24,305 nucleotides of DNA, taken from positions 1-24,305 of IMG/VR virus record IMGVR_UViG_3300007516_000140. The stretch is one strand, 5' to 3'. The DNA comes from a virus. Of this stretch, positions 7,303 through 24,305 are shown piece by piece (position 1 is the first letter of the stretch; every line of letters begins with the position of its first letter). The position numbers and the translations under genes were made by a program. The notes under the pieces were generated by a model. The model saw only the letters and a list, made by a program, of their open reading frames with translations, was not told where the DNA came from and did not search any database.

Positions 7303-9234
7303 ATGGCAACACCATTAATAAGAATACCTCAGGAGCAAGGAGGTACCATGTTCGCATTTTCAAGTGCAGCAAGGGATCTTACAAGAGCTTATTATAACCC
7401 AGATATTAATTTTGAGTATTCTAAGTTCGCATTATTAGACATACCATTAGTTGCAACACCATCTAATGGAGAAAACTATATTAACTTTGCAAATCTTTAT
7501 GAAGGTGGAGCTTCACCAGCGACATCATACACACCAAATTCAGATGCAAATGTAAATTTCGCAGAGACGTTACAGAATTACGCGTTAAACCTTGAGAATT
7601 TTATTCTTAATGATGACGATTTCGACGAAGCAATATATGCATCTGATGCTGAAAAGATTTTCTTCAAATGGCTACATCATCTAGGTGCATTTGAGGTTAA
7701 ATCTGCAAATACGCAACAGGCAGTCTCTGGATATTCCAGATTAATCGAAAATGAAGATACTACAAATAGTGGTAATAATTATAGTAGAGTAGTAAAGTAC
7801 CTAGGAAACATCGACGTTTCAAACGATAAAAACTATAAAGGAAACACTTATAATGAAATATTTGTGAATGTACCATCGTATGTTGGTTATACTCCGGATA
7901 TTTTGTTTAAGTCTTCAAACTATAATACGACTGCTACTTCTTATTTGCCTCTATCTGACATTAATGGTAGGGCAAATCAAACTCATCCGGATTCATTTTT
8001 AACAATGGGATCCCTTTCAGACAATGGTACAGGTACTATTAATATATCGACGGCTACACAGTATCATTATGGTATTGATTGGAATTCATCAATATATTCT
8101 AAAATAGTAACTGATCCTAAATTAAACAACTTCTTAGATTATTCTAAACAAGGTGGAGACTTTAAGTTTAATGCTATATTAGTGTACTATGATGTATATT
8201 CAAAATCAAACGTAGCTAATAAGTCCACAAACTTATATGGTGTAATCTTACTTGATAATTTTAAGAATGACCCTAATACTACAGGTTCTATCATACCTCA
8301 ATTAACAAAATATAAACCTAACGATGTTACTGGGTTGAATGGTAACGCATTTGCTCTTAAGTTGAATGTTAAATTCAACTCTTCATTAGATAATGTTGGA
8401 GTAGAGTCAAATATAAATGACTACTCGACATTCTCAATGGACATTTTCTTAAACACAACAACTGCTTTAGAAAATGCGGCAAAGCTAATGATCGAAGCAA
8501 ACACTAGATATTCTGCAATTGTTGATAGATTAGTTTCGGTAGAGAGTATCTTAATGACTTCAAATCAGACAACTGCAATTGCTGATAGGATTGCAGCAAT
8601 TGAATTAGCTTTAGTGAACGCTACTTTAAACTTTGCCTCTTCAACTTCAATTATAGATATGATAACTTCAGTTAACTCTAGACTAAACCAAGTTATTAAT
8701 GGCAATATACCAACGGAAGTTCAATATAATACAGATGTTTTTGCAGCGGGCGATGGTGTTAAAATAGATAAAACAAATCCAGTCAAAATTAAAATATTAA
8801 ATGATAATAACGGTTACTCATTAAACGACGTTTTCGTTTATGAGTTTACTGGAGGGGTTACAGGTAATATTATTAATAGCTCTAACTTGTTTAATATGGG
8901 TCTTACAGCAGCTAATGGAATAATCACTAGAGTTAAACCGTTTGACAATCTAGTAAGACTTAATACTAATAGCGCAGTGCTAACTGGTGATTTGAATATA
9001 TATTTAGATGATAGTATAAATACATGGAAAAAAGGTCAAACGGTAAAGTTTGCTTTTAAAAACATGCTGCCTTCATTAGCAATATATAAAATTAATATTT
9101 ACACAGACAAAAATAATAGCTGGGTGCTTAAAGCAACTTTAGAAACTTCTAATATGCTTAGCCAAACACCATATGCTGAATTTATTTGTGTAGACGAAAT
9201 AAACAAGACATTTGAACTTGAAATTATAAGATAA
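7303..9234 (+). CDS. Large virion structural protein with central coiled coil, unrecognised family
   Basis: A 643-aa protein. The N-terminal ~390 residues are rich in Asn, Tyr, Ser and Asp, with aromatic beta-like stretches. They begin with ATPLIRIPQEQGGTMFAFSS and include KIFFKWLHHLGAF near residue 120. Residues about 395-470 form a helical segment with heptad-like hydrophobic spacing (AAKLMIEANTRYSAIVDRLV, then IADRIAAIELAL), a likely trimeric coiled coil. After it comes a compact C-terminal beta domain (about 475-643). This head-stalk-tip layout fits a baseplate-peripheral or fibre protein. A 21-nt gap separates it from the previous gene, with a TATAAAAA stretch at 7288-7295. No convincing match to T4 gp8-gp11 was seen. 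It is a structural protein by context and composition. Confidence 0.68.
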   Translation: MATPLIRIPQEQGGTMFAFSSAARDLTRAYYNPDINFEYSKFALLDIPLVATPSNGENYINFANLYEGGASPATSYTPNSDANVNFAETLQNYALNLENFILNDDDFDEAIYASDAEKIFFKWLHHLGAFEVKSANTQQAVSGYSRLIENEDTTNSGNNYSRVVKYLGNIDVSNDKNYKGNTYNEIFVNVPSYVGYTPDILFKSSNYNTTATSYLPLSDINGRANQTHPDSFLTMGSLSDNGTGTINISTATQYHYGIDWNSSIYSKIVTDPKLNNFLDYSKQGGDFKFNAILVYYDVYSKSNVANKSTNLYGVILLDNFKNDPNTTGSIIPQLTKYKPNDVTGLNGNAFALKLNVKFNSSLDNVGVESNINDYSTFSMDIFLNTTTALENAAKLMIEANTRYSAIVDRLVSVESILMTSNQTTAIADRIAAIELALVNATLNFASSTSIIDMITSVNSRLNQVINGNIPTEVQYNTDVFAAGDGVKIDKTNPVKIKILNDNNGYSLNDVFVYEFTGGVTGNIINSSNLFNMGLTAANGIITRVKPFDNLVRLNTNSAVLTGDLNIYLDDSINTWKKGQTVKFAFKNMLPSLAIYKINIYTDKNNSWVLKATLETSNMLSQTPYAEFICVDEINKTFELEIIR

Positions 9235-17421: not shown

Positions 17422-18786
17422 ATGGCTATTGATATTAAGGAATTATTCAAAACTGACCTAGATGCAAACAGCATTCTCTGGTGGTCTAATGACAAAATTG
17501 ATAAGATTAATCATAATTTTAAACAGTTGTTAAGCGGAGGAATGCCTGGACCTCAAGGATTGACTGGATTTTATGGAGGATTTGGAAATGTCGGTATTGC
17601 TGGGGTATTAGGCGATGATGGAGCTCAAGGACCTCAAGGGACTCAGGGGCCGGCATTGTTGAGTGGCTGGGTATATTATCCAGATACTATAAATTCTATA
17701 GGTTATTTATTTCCAAAGCGAAACGCAGCGACTATCACACAATACTCACCATCTCCTTTGCTTATTGGGGTAGACGGCGGAGACTCTCTATATAATCCAC
17801 CGTCCCTTTGGTATAAATATGTTGTCTTATCTAATGTTAACTCACCAACACAAGTTGGAAGTATTCGATTAAATTTAAGAATTCAACATGATGATAAGAC
17901 CGCAGATTTTAAATTAACTAAGGATCCGGATCCAGCGATGTATATTGGTAAGCTTGATTCTACTGATGTTGGTTTTAAATTAGAACATATTTCAGGAAAC
18001 ACAATATTAAAGTCTATTACACCATCAAACACAACACCTACTAATGCTCATGAGATTAATGACACTTTAATAAAAATAAATCCTAGGTTAGCTGTTGGTG
18101 TAGCTGTTGAAGCAACTGCTGATTTAAGTAATGTTGCTGGTAAAAATACTAAGTCTAATCATACTTTAATATATGATAAAACAGCTCAGATAGATAATGT
18201 ACTAGTTTCTAGTGATGTTGCAGGTACTTCAAATTGGGTAGACAAGAAAACAATGTTTAATGATTTTCCAGTTGGGTCAATTATATCAATAAGAGAAGAG
18301 GATTTCAATTATAATAACTTCTACTTGGATGAAGCTATAATACAGACTGGACTTATTTTATCAGCTTTAAGCAACCGATATGGAAAAGGAAAACCAGACA
18401 CTCCGTTTATGGGTTGGTACTTGTGTAATGGAGAGTATTGGAAGGAAGGCACTACATATATTTTAACACCTAACCTGAACTCGTTTAATAGTGTTATTGA
18501 TGGAAATGGCGGAAACCAGCCAGCAGTAATTGGAGGTGATGATTCACCAATATTAGTAGCCGGTTATGATATAGGTCTCAATGCTTCTGTAAATGATAGT
18601 GGTGTATATTCCATTAGTTTTACAAATACGTTTGATGACAATGATACATCATCATTACCAGATGAAATAATATTAGGTGCTGGGAGTGGTGCTAGAGTTA
18701 ATAGAATGGTTCATTTAGTTTACTTAGAAAATAAAAACTTAACATGGTCAAGGACTTACTCAGGGGCTACTGCACCTAGTATATAG
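17422..18786 (+). CDS. Collagen-stalk tail fibre with tail-collar-like head (paralogue 1)
   Basis: A 454-aa protein. Its N-terminal docking-like motif is IDKINHNFKQLL (residues 26-37), followed at 40-78 by 13 uninterrupted Gly-X-Y triplets (GMPGPQGLTG ... GPQGTQGPA), a short trimeric collagen-like stalk. The middle is beta-rich. Residues about 287-360 carry the tail-collar/short-tail-fibre pattern: PVGSIISI, then MGWYLCNGEYWKEG, then TPNLNSF. The C-terminal part is Gly/Ser-rich (GAGSGARVNRMVHLVYLE). This matches the general design of phage receptor-binding short fibres (gp12-type), although sequence identity to gp12 is not evident. It shares every one of these blocks with the next gene. It starts 3 nt after the giant gene and is followed by a 62-nt gap with promoter-like sequence. 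Fibre role: high confidence; receptor: unknown. Confidence 0.85.
   Translation: MAIDIKELFKTDLDANSILWWSNDKIDKINHNFKQLLSGGMPGPQGLTGFYGGFGNVGIAGVLGDDGAQGPQGTQGPALLSGWVYYPDTINSIGYLFPKRNAATITQYSPSPLLIGVDGGDSLYNPPSLWYKYVVLSNVNSPTQVGSIRLNLRIQHDDKTADFKLTKDPDPAMYIGKLDSTDVGFKLEHISGNTILKSITPSNTTPTNAHEINDTLIKINPRLAVGVAVEATADLSNVAGKNTKSNHTLIYDKTAQIDNVLVSSDVAGTSNWVDKKTMFNDFPVGSIISIREEDFNYNNFYLDEAIIQTGLILSALSNRYGKGKPDTPFMGWYLCNGEYWKEGTTYILTPNLNSFNSVIDGNGGNQPAVIGGDDSPILVAGYDIGLNASVNDSGVYSISFTNTFDDNDTSSLPDEIILGAGSGARVNRMVHLVYLENKNLTWSRTYSGATAPSI
17539..17655 (+). repeat. Collagen-like Gly-X-Y repeat, 13 triplets
   Basis: Thirteen consecutive Gly-X-Y codon triplets (residues 40-78 of the 17422 protein). The set includes GPQ twice, GAQ and GTQ, with bulkier triplets (GFY, GGF, GVL) in the middle. 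Proline is sparse and Gln is common at Y, as in other phage collagen-like stalks, which lack hydroxyproline. Confidence 0.93.
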
Positions 18787-18821
18787 CGAATATAGACACG
18801 AAAGCAATATAAAGAATTTGA

Positions 18822-18837
18822 ATATATAATATAAATA
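18822..18837 (+). promoter_or_regulatory. Candidate late promoter (ATATATAAT fused to TATAAATA)
   Basis: ATATATAAT at 18822-18830 leads directly into the exact T4 late octamer TATAAATA at 18830-18837, in the 62-nt gap between the two collagen fibres. The 9-mer has 18 nt between it and the ATG at 18849, and the octamer has 11 nt. This is the best-placed candidate in the window and would allow the second fibre to be expressed separately from the first. Confidence 0.42.
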
Positions 18838-18848
18838 ATAGAATAAAG

Positions 18849-20486
18849 ATGATAAATCTCAAGCAAATAAATGTTTCTGATAGCGATAACATTAAGCTAG
18901 ACAACGTTAATTATAACTTTGACCAACTTATTGTTAATTGTGGTGGACCCCAAGGACCTACGGGGTCTGATGGAGCTACTGGCGCTCAGGGAGTTACTGG
19001 CGCTCAAGGAAGTCAAGGTTCTACAGGGACTCAAGGGTTTCAAGGACCCATTGGGGCGTCTAGCACTACTTATTGGAACAATATTGCTGGAGATGCTATT
19101 ACATTTTCAGCAGACACACTAGTACCTAAACATACTGCGCCCATGGAGTATCCACCAGTTATTAGTGTTGGTTTTTTAGATACAGATTCTCAATATAATA
19201 CAAGTCAAGCTCTTATTGCTGGTCAATCACCATATCAATTCATTATCAATAGAAAGGATCATTTTGAGTCTAATCTGCGTTTCACTAGTTCAGACATAGA
19301 TGGCAATCATTTTGACTTTAAGATGTCTAATGACCCTTTGTCGGATCTTGATACTTTTACTTTAGGGTTCGGTGTTCCAGTAGCGACTTCTATTGTTTGG
19401 TATGCTCAAAATCATATTTTTAAGAGCAATGTTACTGGAAGTAATTTAATGGAGATAACAGACTCTACTATTAAATACAACGTAGACACTGAATTTAATA
19501 GACCAGTGACTATTAAAGAACAATTAGTAATAGGTAATTCTGGAGCTGGTGTTGATAAATTAGCGGTATCATCTGATACTTTAGGTACTGTTGTTTTTAA
19601 GTCAGTTAACGAACTTGGAGGAACCGTTCCTTTCGGAACTATAGTTTCAATGCTACCGTCAGTATTCAGTGATAGTACTAAATTTATAAATTCTCAAACA
19701 ATAGATACTGTGACAGCTCCAGATGATCCTATACAAATTAGAATGGGAGCTGGAATTGGAGATTATTTAGGCTGGTATCTTTGTAATGGAAAAGTATGGG
19801 AGGGTATAGTTGCTCAATCACAACATAATGTACCGGATCTTAATTCATTTTCATACAGTATTGAAGATAACCCTACATCAATTGATATTAACAGCCAGGG
19901 TTCTGTTTCGGTAAGCAATACAGATACTCACTTGATTGGAGGAGCTGACATAGATATGGCTGCTGTTTTTGCTACTCCAAGCACTTATAATATTAGTGGA
20001 ACTGTTACAACAACTGACACTACCGTAGGTGGTGGTGGATCTTCAACGTTTAAGATTAAAAGACTGCCTCAGATAATTTATTTAGGAGAAACTGATTGTT
20101 ATTGGAAAGACAAAGGAACTAACCAAAACCCTCCAACTTTAACGTTTACTTTGTCCGATGATAACTCAGGTACAACTGCAATTTCACCAAATCCGACATC
20201 TCTTGGAAGTGGTACAGAGGCGCCAACTACTGAATATTCAATAACATTCACTGTTGCTGCACCTAACAACCATTACTGGAGTAGTGCCCCGACTTTTGCT
20301 TTCAGCGCACAGACATATCCTTATATATCATCAATAACGCAACCTACTGCAATTCCGGTTGATAGTTTCCTTAGCTACGTGTCATTAACCATACATATAT
20401 CTAGTCAACCTGCAATTGACACGCCAGTAACAATAACAGTAGATACGGGAAGCAACATAACAATTCTTCCATTCGAACCAGGCTAG
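18849..20486 (+). CDS. Collagen-stalk tail fibre with tail-collar-like head (paralogue 2, extended tip)
   Basis: A 545-aa paralogue of the preceding fibre. It has the N-terminal motif LDNVNYNFDQLI (17-28), 13 Gly-X-Y triplets at 33-71 (GPQGPTGSDG ... GFQGPIGAS) and a beta-rich shaft. The collar-like blocks are PFGTIVSM, LGWYLCNGKVWEGI and VPDLNSFSYSIE, and a closing strand LPQIIYLGE follows. The C-terminal ~100 residues (from about 445, NPPTLTFTLSDDNSG onward) are absent from paralogue 1 and look like an added Thr/Ser/Pro-rich Ig-like or carbohydrate-binding beta domain. A fibre/receptor-binding role follows from the collar and collagen architecture. The extra tip suggests a different receptor or a decoration. 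It is separated from paralogue 1 by a promoter-like gap and followed after 4 nt by a membrane protein gene. Confidence 0.85.
   Translation: MINLKQINVSDSDNIKLDNVNYNFDQLIVNCGGPQGPTGSDGATGAQGVTGAQGSQGSTGTQGFQGPIGASSTTYWNNIAGDAITFSADTLVPKHTAPMEYPPVISVGFLDTDSQYNTSQALIAGQSPYQFIINRKDHFESNLRFTSSDIDGNHFDFKMSNDPLSDLDTFTLGFGVPVATSIVWYAQNHIFKSNVTGSNLMEITDSTIKYNVDTEFNRPVTIKEQLVIGNSGAGVDKLAVSSDTLGTVVFKSVNELGGTVPFGTIVSMLPSVFSDSTKFINSQTIDTVTAPDDPIQIRMGAGIGDYLGWYLCNGKVWEGIVAQSQHNVPDLNSFSYSIEDNPTSIDINSQGSVSVSNTDTHLIGGADIDMAAVFATPSTYNISGTVTTTDTTVGGGGSSTFKIKRLPQIIYLGETDCYWKDKGTNQNPPTLTFTLSDDNSGTTAISPNPTSLGSGTEAPTTEYSITFTVAAPNNHYWSSAPTFAFSAQTYPYISSITQPTAIPVDSFLSYVSLTIHISSQPAIDTPVTITVDTGSNITILPFEPG
18945..19061 (+). 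repeat. Collagen-like Gly-X-Y repeat, 13 triplets
   Basis: Thirteen consecutive Gly-X-Y triplets (residues 33-71), dominated by GAQ/GAT/GSQ/GTQ. At the DNA level an 11-bp word ACTGGCGCTCA recurs 18 bp apart (18978-18988 and 18996-19006), showing recent expansion by a two-triplet unit. The triplet number equals that in the upstream paralogue. Confidence 0.93.
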
Positions 20487-21320: not shown

Positions 21321-23402
21321 ATGGCAAAATCATCTAGATTCCTAAAAATTGACGACGATATTTTAATGGAATTCATCTATCACGATCAATCATACCCTGA
21401 TTTGGTAAAGATTGATAATGATAATAATGGAAGTCAACTAAAGTATCTAAATACTGTTAGTGCTAATGACAGTGCTTCCAGATTTTTAATACATGAGCTA
21501 GGTGCTGATGTTGTTGAGTTTGTTGTAACAACTGCTAATGGGTATGTTGTTGTTAATAATTTTGCAGGAAGGCACCTATTACTACGAAATGGTAAGACAT
21601 ACAGGTTTGATCTAACAGATGCTAGTGTAGATAATGTCACTGGTTTTAATATACCAGGTGGTAATGGATATTTATCAGGGTCGGTATACATATATACACC
21701 AACTACTAATGGTAAATATGCTTACACTTATTCTAATGCAGCTTTAAATAGTTTAATTGGTGGAGAAATTGAAGTTTCAAACCGGGCAAGTTCTCTTTTC
21801 TCAGTTCCGGTTGCTCAAACTGGAAATGACATTAAAACAGCAGCCGGTGAAAGCGGAAGATATTATGCTGTTCCTTCTGGAATAGAAAGTACAATGGCTC
21901 TTTTAAATAATTCTCTAGATTATTTAGATTCAGCAGAATGGTTAGGTACTAATTCTGTAGGGCTTAGCGTTGTTCCTGTATCAACGGTACAGGCTGTTTG
22001 GTATGATACTATAAAATTACACTTAAGAACTGGATATTCTTTTAGCGGGAGAGGTTATAGCGGATTTTTGTTTCAAACTAAAGTTAAAAGAAACTCTGGA
22101 GTCTATAATTATTTTAATTCAACAGTTTACTTAAATCACTCAAACTTTGAAACCCAAAACCCAAACCCATTCATATTAGGAGAATCTTCATACTCAAAAT
22201 ATATTGAAATCAAAGTACCGTCATTGATTTATATGCATGATTCTAGTAAAAATGGAGATTTTGAAGATAGTTTCTTTGGAGCCGCTACGGTTTCACCAGC
22301 ACCTGTAAATCCTGATGCAACAAACGCTTCTATTAACTATGAATTTGATTTTAAATTAATAAGCTCAGTGTTTACCAATAATGGTTATGAATATATTAAC
22401 TTAGTAGAGGGAAAATCACTAGTGCTTTCACAAGAAGACGAATTCGTTGACTTAGCAATTAACATTGAGCATGCTACTGATGGCGACTATTTTAAGATAT
22501 ATGGAACTAAAGATGGGTCACAGACTGGTTTTGAAGGCTATATTAATGGAAGAATGCAAACTTCAGGAGATGACTTAACAGTATTTTATGAAGTTCAAGT
22601 TGCTGAGCAGATTGGTCTTAATTATGTTAGCACATTTGTGAACACGTTTACACAAACAACACAATTTGATACTCCTATTGTATTTAGACCGGTAATTATG
22701 AACTCCTCAGTTTCTAGTAATTTTTTAATTACGGTAAACATGCGAGTGTATAATGAAACCGATAATACTCAAATATTAAAAACAGGTTCTTTAATATATA
22801 GCCAACCTAAAAAATATGGGAAGAATCTATTAAAATTAAATTTGAATTCAAGTTTTTCACCTACTATTATATACAATACTCTTGATAATACTAGTGTTAA
22901 CAGGGAATTAAATCAATTTGTAAATTCTATAAGACCAGATATTGGAGAGACTAAATATGTACCAGTAGCTTTAGACACTTATGGAATTTTAGCCGGAAGC
23001 ACTAATGTAACTACAGAAGGAGCTATAATCAGCACAACAAATGTATTCAAATATGAGACAGAAGGAAAAGGTACAATAAGTCTTTCTAAAGTTTCAGACA
23101 ATTTCATTAAATTTAAAGTTGTTCAACCCGATGGCAATAATTTTAAGTCAATAAGTTTAGTAAATGCTGAAGATATTGTTTTGATTATTAAAAGTGGAGC
23201 AATAGAGCAAAGAATATCACACGACCCTAGTTTTCCTGGAGTTGATATGGGTGCTGGAGAAACTCTATTCAAAATACCTAAAAGTGTTGCTGTTAGATTC
23301 GATCAATCAGATACTAATCAAAACACAGATAGATTCTATATAAATATTAAAAACGGAAGTACAGAATCTTTATTGTACTACGGAAAAGTAAATATCATAT
23401 AA
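21321..23402 (+). CDS. Large virion structural protein (693 aa), unrecognised family
   Basis: A 693-aa beta-rich protein with a distinctive N terminus: SSRFLKIDDDILMEFIYHDQ (residues 4-23), then a Gly/Asn-rich region (FNIPGGNGYLSGSVYIYTP). Cysteine is absent as far as I can see. There is no signal peptide, transmembrane segment or coiled coil. It starts 14 nt after the membrane protein gene behind an A-rich leader (GTATATAAAA). Its stop overlaps the next start as TAATG (23400-23404), so it is translationally coupled to the tail-tube-fold gene. It is probably a tail or baseplate protein made in fixed ratio with that protein. No enzymatic motif is recognised. Confidence 0.65.
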   Translation: MAKSSRFLKIDDDILMEFIYHDQSYPDLVKIDNDNNGSQLKYLNTVSANDSASRFLIHELGADVVEFVVTTANGYVVVNNFAGRHLLLRNGKTYRFDLTDASVDNVTGFNIPGGNGYLSGSVYIYTPTTNGKYAYTYSNAALNSLIGGEIEVSNRASSLFSVPVAQTGNDIKTAAGESGRYYAVPSGIESTMALLNNSLDYLDSAEWLGTNSVGLSVVPVSTVQAVWYDTIKLHLRTGYSFSGRGYSGFLFQTKVKRNSGVYNYFNSTVYLNHSNFETQNPNPFILGESSYSKYIEIKVPSLIYMHDSSKNGDFEDSFFGAATVSPAPVNPDATNASINYEFDFKLISSVFTNNGYEYINLVEGKSLVLSQEDEFVDLAINIEHATDGDYFKIYGTKDGSQTGFEGYINGRMQTSGDDLTVFYEVQVAEQIGLNYVSTFVNTFTQTTQFDTPIVFRPVIMNSSVSSNFLITVNMRVYNETDNTQILKTGSLIYSQPKKYGKNLLKLNLNSSFSPTIIYNTLDNTSVNRELNQFVNSIRPDIGETKYVPVALDTYGILAGSTNVTTEGAIISTTNVFKYETEGKGTISLSKVSDNFIKFKVVQPDGNNFKSISLVNAEDIVLIIKSGAIEQRISHDPSFPGVDMGAGETLFKIPKSVAVRFDQSDTNQNTDRFYINIKNGSTESLLYYGKVNII

Positions 23403-23953
23403 TGATTTTAAATAGTAGAAATAACTTATTTAACTTTAAGTTTCCTAGGACTTTTATACCTAAGGAGGTCGCTGACAAATATAGAAAGTATTTGAATAGA
23501 ATGCCGGGTAATTTGATTACTGAGCCTATAGATTTTATTAATTATTCTATACAGGGTTTAGGGGTTCCAGGAATATCATTTGAGCCTATATTAATATCGC
23601 CGAACGACGGGACAGTAACTTATCATAGAGGCTCTATTCCTATACAAAATACAATAGATAGACAATTTAAAGTTTCTATGCAATTATTGGATGGTTATAT
23701 TAACTATTGGATTATGCAAGATACTCTTCTTTATTATTATTCAAAGAAAGTAAAGGAACCATTTTTAAATGATATGAAACTACAGATAATGGATGCAGAA
23801 GGAATTCATATCATGAGTGCTGTTTTTGAAAAGCCTATCTTAAATTCTATATCAGAACTAGAGTTAAATATGAGTACTAACATTGCTGAATTTACAACAT
23901 TTGACCTTAACTTTTATTATAATAAGTTTAACATTAAATTAGAAATTGATTAA
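23402..23953 (+). CDS. Tail-tube-fold protein (tail tube gp19-like or tube initiator gp48/gp54-like)
   Basis: A 183-aa protein. The pattern fits the myovirus tail-tube fold. An early strand with YSIQGLGVPGISFEPI (about 48-63) sits where tube proteins have the small 'P-G-I' loop. A basic strand and QFKVSMQLLDGYINYWIM (about 88-105) correspond to the 'F...V...D...x...W' strand-helix of gp19. Then come LNDMKLQIMDAEG, a strand pair, and LELNMSTNIAEFTTFDLNFYYN (about 153-174), the terminal 'S...N.E..TF.v.f.Y' strand. T4 gp19 is 163 aa, and the tube initiators gp48 and gp54 share the fold but are longer. The size therefore favours tube, while the position near baseplate genes favours initiator. The start overlaps the upstream stop (TAATG). 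The fold is inferred from pattern only. Confidence 0.6.
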   Translation: MILNSRNNLFNFKFPRTFIPKEVADKYRKYLNRMPGNLITEPIDFINYSIQGLGVPGISFEPILISPNDGTVTYHRGSIPIQNTIDRQFKVSMQLLDGYINYWIMQDTLLYYYSKKVKEPFLNDMKLQIMDAEGIHIMSAVFEKPILNSISELELNMSTNIAEFTTFDLNFYYNKFNIKLEID

Positions 23954-23966: not shown

Positions 23967-24305
23967 ATGAAAACATTTTTAGATTATATGCTAGCAGAAA
24001 ACATAACATCTGCTGAGCTAGAAATATTAAACGAGTCTCTTCAATCAGAATGGACTGAAGAACTAGAGGCTAGGGTGGATATAGCCTTAGATGAATTCAC
24101 GAAGCAGTATATGAATAAAGATGGGTCTTATAACATTCATGAATTTAATAATGAACTTACAAATGAAGGTATCTTAGGAAGTATATTCGGAGGATTAGTT
24201 GGATTTGCGTTAGGTAAAACTGTAGGTAAAACCATAGCTAGAATTCTTGGAATTCAATCGGGTGTTATGTATGACATGTTAACCTCACGTCTTGTTGGTG
24301 CGGCT
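23967..24305 (+). CDS. Partial gene: capsid-targeting-like N terminus plus glycine zipper, possible packaged membrane-active protein
   Basis: The open frame runs off the window end (113 codons seen). The N terminus MKTFLDYMLAE closely resembles the T4 capsid-targeting peptide of the internal proteins (MKTYQEFIAE): Met-Lys-Thr, aromatics at 4 and 7, then Leu-x-Glu. L9-A10-E11 and L21-N22-E23-S24 fit the (L/I)-x-E cleavage pattern of the gp21 prohead protease. An acidic helical part (about 15-65) precedes a hydrophobic segment with Gly at 71, 75, 79, 83 and 87, an exact GxxxG zipper, followed by basic KTVGKTIARILG. Such zippers pack transmembrane or membrane-inserting helices. The protein may be packaged in the head and ejected to act on the host membrane. 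It could instead be a holin-like or scaffold protein. The C terminus is missing, so the call is inference. Confidence 0.5.
   Translation, partial: MKTFLDYMLAENITSAELEILNESLQSEWTEELEARVDIALDEFTKQYMNKDGSYNIHEFNNELTNEGILGSIFGGLVGFALGKTVGKTIARILGIQSGVMYDMLTSRLVGAA

Follow-up and report, generated by a model that had tools for sequence, protein, structure and literature searches.

T4 and phages closely related to it are already known to have internal proteins bearing a capsid-targeting sequence (CTS). The T4 CTS is 10–19 aa long; mutagenesis assigned residues 4 and 7 to targeting and residues 8 and 10 to processing, and a CTS with Asp at position 10 was blocked in processing while targeting stayed intact (PMC9026906). 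The protein described here resembles the T4 internal proteins IPI, IPII, and IPIII in its MKT[FY]xx[FY][ILM] N terminus, in a basic mature part, and in the presence of an S77 protease in relatives of its phage, and it resembles IPI in an (L/I)-x-E↓small cleavage-type site at residues 19–24 (the arrow marking the cut). Its mature sequence, however, is unrelated to theirs and is predicted to form a glycine-zipper hairpin, and it carries a second invariant site at E67; furthermore, the IPs are variable and dispensable, whereas this gene is core and syntenic with the tail tube gene. The ejection proteins of phiKZ and SPN3US likewise have propeptides processed at multiple sites by a gp21-type protease (putative in our case) in large phages, but those propeptides are long (>100 aa in several) and are cut at S/A-x-E in phiKZ, whereas here the T4-type CTS is short and precedes an acidic segment.

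The stretch of viral DNA analyzed, 24,305 nucleotides in full (the window), ends within an ORF that starts MKTFLDYMLAENITSAELEILNES and meets no stop codon. The window copy comprises the first 113 codons of an approximately 122-aa protein, about 9 codons being absent, because orthologues with a complete ORF on viral contigs are mostly 122 aa; these orthologues supply the complete protein, which the original prediction lacked. The features of the locus are as follows.

23402–23953, plus strand: tail tube protein (gp19-like), the conserved neighbor directly upstream (PHROG 45 tail tube, E = 1.3e-6).
23967–24305, plus strand: ORF of the putatively head-targeted glycine-zipper protein, which the end of the contig truncates after 113 of some 122 codons (full-length orthologues).
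23967–24035, plus strand: N-terminal capsid-targeting propeptide, residues 1–23, with F4 and Y7 at the T4 targeting positions (conservation, profile test, and T4 rules in PMC9026906).
24027–24038, plus strand: putative S77-protease site 1, L21-N-E23↓S24 (E23 invariant in 83 sequences).
24036–24167, plus strand: acidic segment, residues 24–67 (calculated net charge of residues 1–67 in the window protein, −12).
24159–24170, plus strand: putative S77-protease site 2, T-N66-E67↓G68 (E67 and G68 invariant).
24171–24248, plus strand: predicted helix 1 of the hairpin, residues 69–94, GxxxG ladder with K84 and K88 (AlphaFold2 of orthologue residues 68–122).
24264–24305, plus strand: predicted helix 2, residues 100–119, with a TSR motif at 106–108, the window ending at residue 113 (same AlphaFold2 fragment).

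Relatives of the protein are encoded on hundreds of viral contigs (a single further scan gave 254), and none was found in the bacterial genome contigs searched. Pfam, PHROGs, and PDB sequence searches with the protein returned weak compositional or chance matches only, including phrog_767 (E = 0.027) and a single PDB match (E = 0.52). We also considered, and rejected, a second copy in tandem behind the tube gene, as the extra matches were low-score alignments or the protein itself after a short insertion. We aligned 83 distinct orthologous sequences (mean column identity, 65%). CTS residue 4 was F in 82 of them and Y in the other, residue 7 was Y in 79, residue 8 was hydrophobic in 82, and residue 10 was E in 64, with mostly D, N, S, K, or T in the remainder; the N-terminal consensus of the family was KTF-x-[DE]-Y-[LIM]. 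The closest layout match is T4 IPI, MKTFKEF...ITE↓A, whose N terminus, MKTFKEFTSTTTPVSTITEA, equals in layout the MKTFLDY...ILNES of the window. Cleavage of IPI falls after the Glu of ITE↓A.

The CTS was further examined with a 10-column profile built from 22 N termini of a 236-kb relative (G001), with the protein under study and T4 left out of training. Among 253 T4 ORFs, this profile ranked IPII first, IPIII second, and gp22 third, and none of the internal blocks of the T4 ORFs scored as high as IPII and IPIII. The first four columns of the 14-column version of the profile do not fit the T4 internal proteins, which it therefore missed, whereas the 10-column core found them. With the 10-column profile, orthologues of the glycine-zipper protein ranked 28 of 298, 20 of 192, and 12 of 149 in their own genomes, two of them having an N-terminal extension ahead of a preserved KTFxEYL, and the window copy scored poorly because of a one-residue shift. 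The reading of the N-terminal peptide as a T4-type CTS is well supported, since a profile from G001 alone placed T4 IPII and IPIII first and second. Thus, the original prediction that MKTFLDYMLAE nearly copies the T4 targeting peptide agrees with both the conservation of F4 and Y7 and the cross-genome profile test, and the protein is very probably packaged via its CTS.

At putative site 1, L21-x-E23↓S/G/A, E23 was found in 83/83 sequences, L, V, or I at position 21 in 83/83, and S, G, or A after the Glu in 82/83; at site 2, E67 and G68 were each found in 83/83. Judged from invariance and motif, a cut after E23 is likely, and one after E67 is moderately likely. The original prediction had placed a cleavage-like site at Leu9-x-Glu11. 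This site was rejected, as it is peculiar to the window copy, relatives having mostly E10 and some D, N, S, or K; the gp21-like sites that are kept are L21-x-E23 and N66-E67↓G68. In most members, the net charge before E67 was −12 to −16 and that of the 55 residues after E67 was +3 to +6. An S77 (gp21-type) protease, whose absence was to count against the original prediction, is present in relatives: PF03420 scored above the cut-off in 6/10 and 6/10 records searched, some of them fragments, and most larger relatives and Lak-A1 carry a Peptidase_S77 gene. The window record contains neither head genes nor a protease and is too short to tell for the whole phage.

The head module of G001 is in T4 order, namely, portal, small acidic CTS-bearing protein, S77 protease, and major head protein, the acidic protein (7503–7853) taking the gp67-like slot. 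The S77 prohead protease of G001, an ORF of 640 aa (L079:5510-7432), has a long extra tail rich in L/V-x-E and is possibly a protease-scaffold fusion by its sequence; a second S77-like ORF of 132 aa is located at 156286–156684 of G001. This arrangement bears on the reading of the glycine-zipper protein as a prohead core or scaffold component like T4 gp67, gp68, or gp22, which would be targeted to the core and chopped by the protease, its fragments either staying in the head or being lost from it, while its Gly-rich part organizes or anchors the core and nothing is ejected. We consider that reading unlikely. It agrees with the T4 core proteins sharing a CTS and at least two internal protease sites and being cut to peptides (PMC9026906, PMC5694885), with the gene being core to its family, and with the S77 protease gene of Lak-A1 lying about 5 kb away from the homologue there. 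The protein shares with gp67 and gp68 its small size, its charge, and predicted cutting by the prohead protease. However, the gp67-like slot of G001 is already occupied by another CTS-bearing acidic protein, and the strongest conservation of the glycine-zipper protein lies in the hairpin, not in the acidic part. Its profile had no significant match in T4, and homology to gp67/gp68 was rejected on this ground and because the slot is filled by a different protein.

The original prediction had described a five-glycine GxxxG ladder, and this was confirmed: G71, G75, G79, G83, and G87 of the window are all invariant in the 83 distinct sequences. Such a five-step ladder was found in only 1 of 339 ORFs of G001, the orthologue itself, compared with a mean of 0.31 ladder-bearing ORFs in shuffled G001 proteomes, and in 0.1% of shuffled copies of the protein. 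The small-residue ladder runs beyond these five glycines to 91 (A), 95, and 99 and then 107 (S), 111, 115, and 119. AlphaFold2 modeled the orthologue fragment 68–122 as helices 69–94 and 100–119 with a mean pLDDT of 73; the full-length model was poor (pLDDT 57.6). The predicted 55-aa product would be a basic two-helix glycine-zipper hairpin, with K84 within helix 1, K84 and R108 invariant, and K88 nearly so. Those residues and the net charge of +3 to +6 would also suit a basic DNA-associated internal peptide packed with the genome via K84, K88, K92, and R108 and having no membrane role, and an interaction with DNA was assumed for the T4 IPs, which are basic as well (PMC9026906). That alternative appears quite improbable, given that the invariant Gly/Ala/Ser ladder and the hydrophobic faces fit helix-helix packing better.

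The hairpin shares GxxxG runs in hydrophobic helices and a predicted helical-hairpin shape with glycine-zipper membrane domains (PF13488, PF05433, the T6SS effector Tde1, and tape-measure C termini). It differs from them in its weak Pfam matches (best, 4e-4; Gly-zipper_Omp PF13488 and Rick_17kDa_Anti PF05433), in that no lipoprotein signal was seen, in lacking an enzyme fusion, and in having a head-targeting propeptide. One T6SS effector requires its glycine zipper to permeabilize and cross the target inner membrane, and phage tape-measure proteins have similar zippers (PMC10240207). The best 19-residue hydropathy was 1.05–1.54 versus the usual transmembrane threshold of 1.6. Membrane insertion is therefore only plausible, the hydropathy being just under the cut-off and the Pfam matches weak, and we lean slightly toward it. 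Of the original prediction of a head-packaged, membrane-inserting protein, the packaging half is thus strongly supported, by the CTS, the S77 protease in relatives, and the two invariant Glu sites, whereas the membrane half stays at plausibility.

Of 80 loci anchored on the tail tube gene, 79 have this gene no more than 650 bases downstream of it, indicating a core gene rather than variable cargo. This position has consequences for two further readings. One is an ejected membrane-active factor against host membrane functions or superinfecting phages, which the original prediction had offered as an early inhibitor. A head-packaged basic glycine-zipper peptide could depolarize a membrane, and glycine-zipper toxins are known (PMC10240207). 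Anti-host cargo such as the IPs, however, varies (PMC9026906), whereas strict conservation and synteny with the tail tube gene make a core role the more likely one for this gene; the inhibitor role seems improbable to us. The other reading places the protein in the tail or neck, traveling inside the tail tube as a tape-measure-like plug, its CTS likeness being coincidental. Its almost constant place after the tail tube gene and the glycine zippers also found in phage tape-measure proteins (PMC10240207) speak for this, but the conserved CTS determinants, the cross-genome profile test, and the invariant gp21-type sites speak against it, and at about 122 aa the protein is far too short for a tape measure, making this reading very improbable. 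Identity with the tail tape measure itself, a long coiled-coil protein that sets tail length, was rejected for the same shortness. Elsewhere in the window, two neighboring tail-region proteins (17422–20486) have short collagen-like GxxGxx stretches near their N termini.

Diverged homologues were found in a 462-kb phage (LR756500) and, by profile, in the Lak megaphages (E = 7e-15); a canonical CTS is not present in the Lak homologue. The hosts may be Bacteroidota, judging from pT24 (Tenacibaculum) and Lak (Prevotella).

The CTS is not confined to this protein. In G001, 28 ORFs begin with a peptide of the type MK[HK][IV]KLFE[QED][FY][VIL][NGAT]E↓[ASGK], about 10% of the ORFs tested in this 236-kb genome, and they are separated by a wide score gap from the other ORFs, with two internal matches at an equal level. 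The motif starts 22 ORFs in G011, 9 in G012, and 23 in G016, all counts resting on mechanical ORF calls rather than curated genes (loci L079–L091 and L189–L224 across the four genomes). No set of this kind was found in Tenacibaculum phage pT24 and the part of Lak-A1 searched. Most CTS-bearing proteins match nothing. Among those that do is an Acb1-like protein (L089:9974-10540; G001 204974–205540) with the CTS MKRIKLFEEFLNEK and a Pfam Acb1 score of 31.2 bits (cut-off, 27), its sequence suggesting that an anti-CBASS protein is packaged and injected. T4 Acb1 is encoded beside ipI (Acb1 paper), and the main text of that paper does not use the word "virion." Other cargo matches were to Zeta-toxin/AAA kinase, HD, cytidylyltransferase-like, and leucine-rich repeat proteins and to a DUF2201 peptidase/VWA pair. 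Separately, a CTS-like LKKFKSFEQFINES occurs internally, from about residue 170, in the G001 ORF at 37762–38538; T4 gp61.1 (gene 61.1, L225:18966-19130), small and annotated as hypothetical, has the CTS-like start MKTFKEFIKEDM; and a window ORF with a phosphoribosyltransferase-like motif (396–1166) starts MLDFSQFAKIINEGF, which is faintly CTS-like at a nonsignificant score of 2.3. In our literature search, with most subscription journals outside its scope, neither this glycine-zipper head protein nor CTS sets this large came up.

Taken together, we tentatively favor a core internal head protein of a family of large, uncultured T4-like phages, whose matured hairpin is ejected as a membrane entry aid. 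The CTS would carry the protein into the prohead core, where the S77 prohead protease would cut after E23 and probably also after E67, stripping the acidic part so that a basic peptide of about 55 aa stays in the capsid with the DNA. This peptide would adopt the two-helix glycine-zipper hairpin, travel down the tail at infection, insert into the host inner membrane, and oligomerize via its glycine ladder, thereby aiding entry of the DNA and co-packaged proteins. That the hairpin forms the entry conduit itself is possible, if somewhat more doubtful. The widest form of the idea, in which the T4-type CTS would be a general export code of large T4-like phages, Acb1-like enzyme included, and the conserved head-matured hairpin would be the membrane conduit for DNA and cargo alike, is rather doubtful. 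How DNA and packaged proteins pass the inner membrane is unsettled for T4-like phages, and a head-carried, protease-matured glycine-zipper peptide would be an easily tested candidate. Furthermore, a common N-terminal label would give a simple sequence rule predicting which of the numerous uncharacterized large-phage proteins, anti-defense enzymes included, are injected at time zero.
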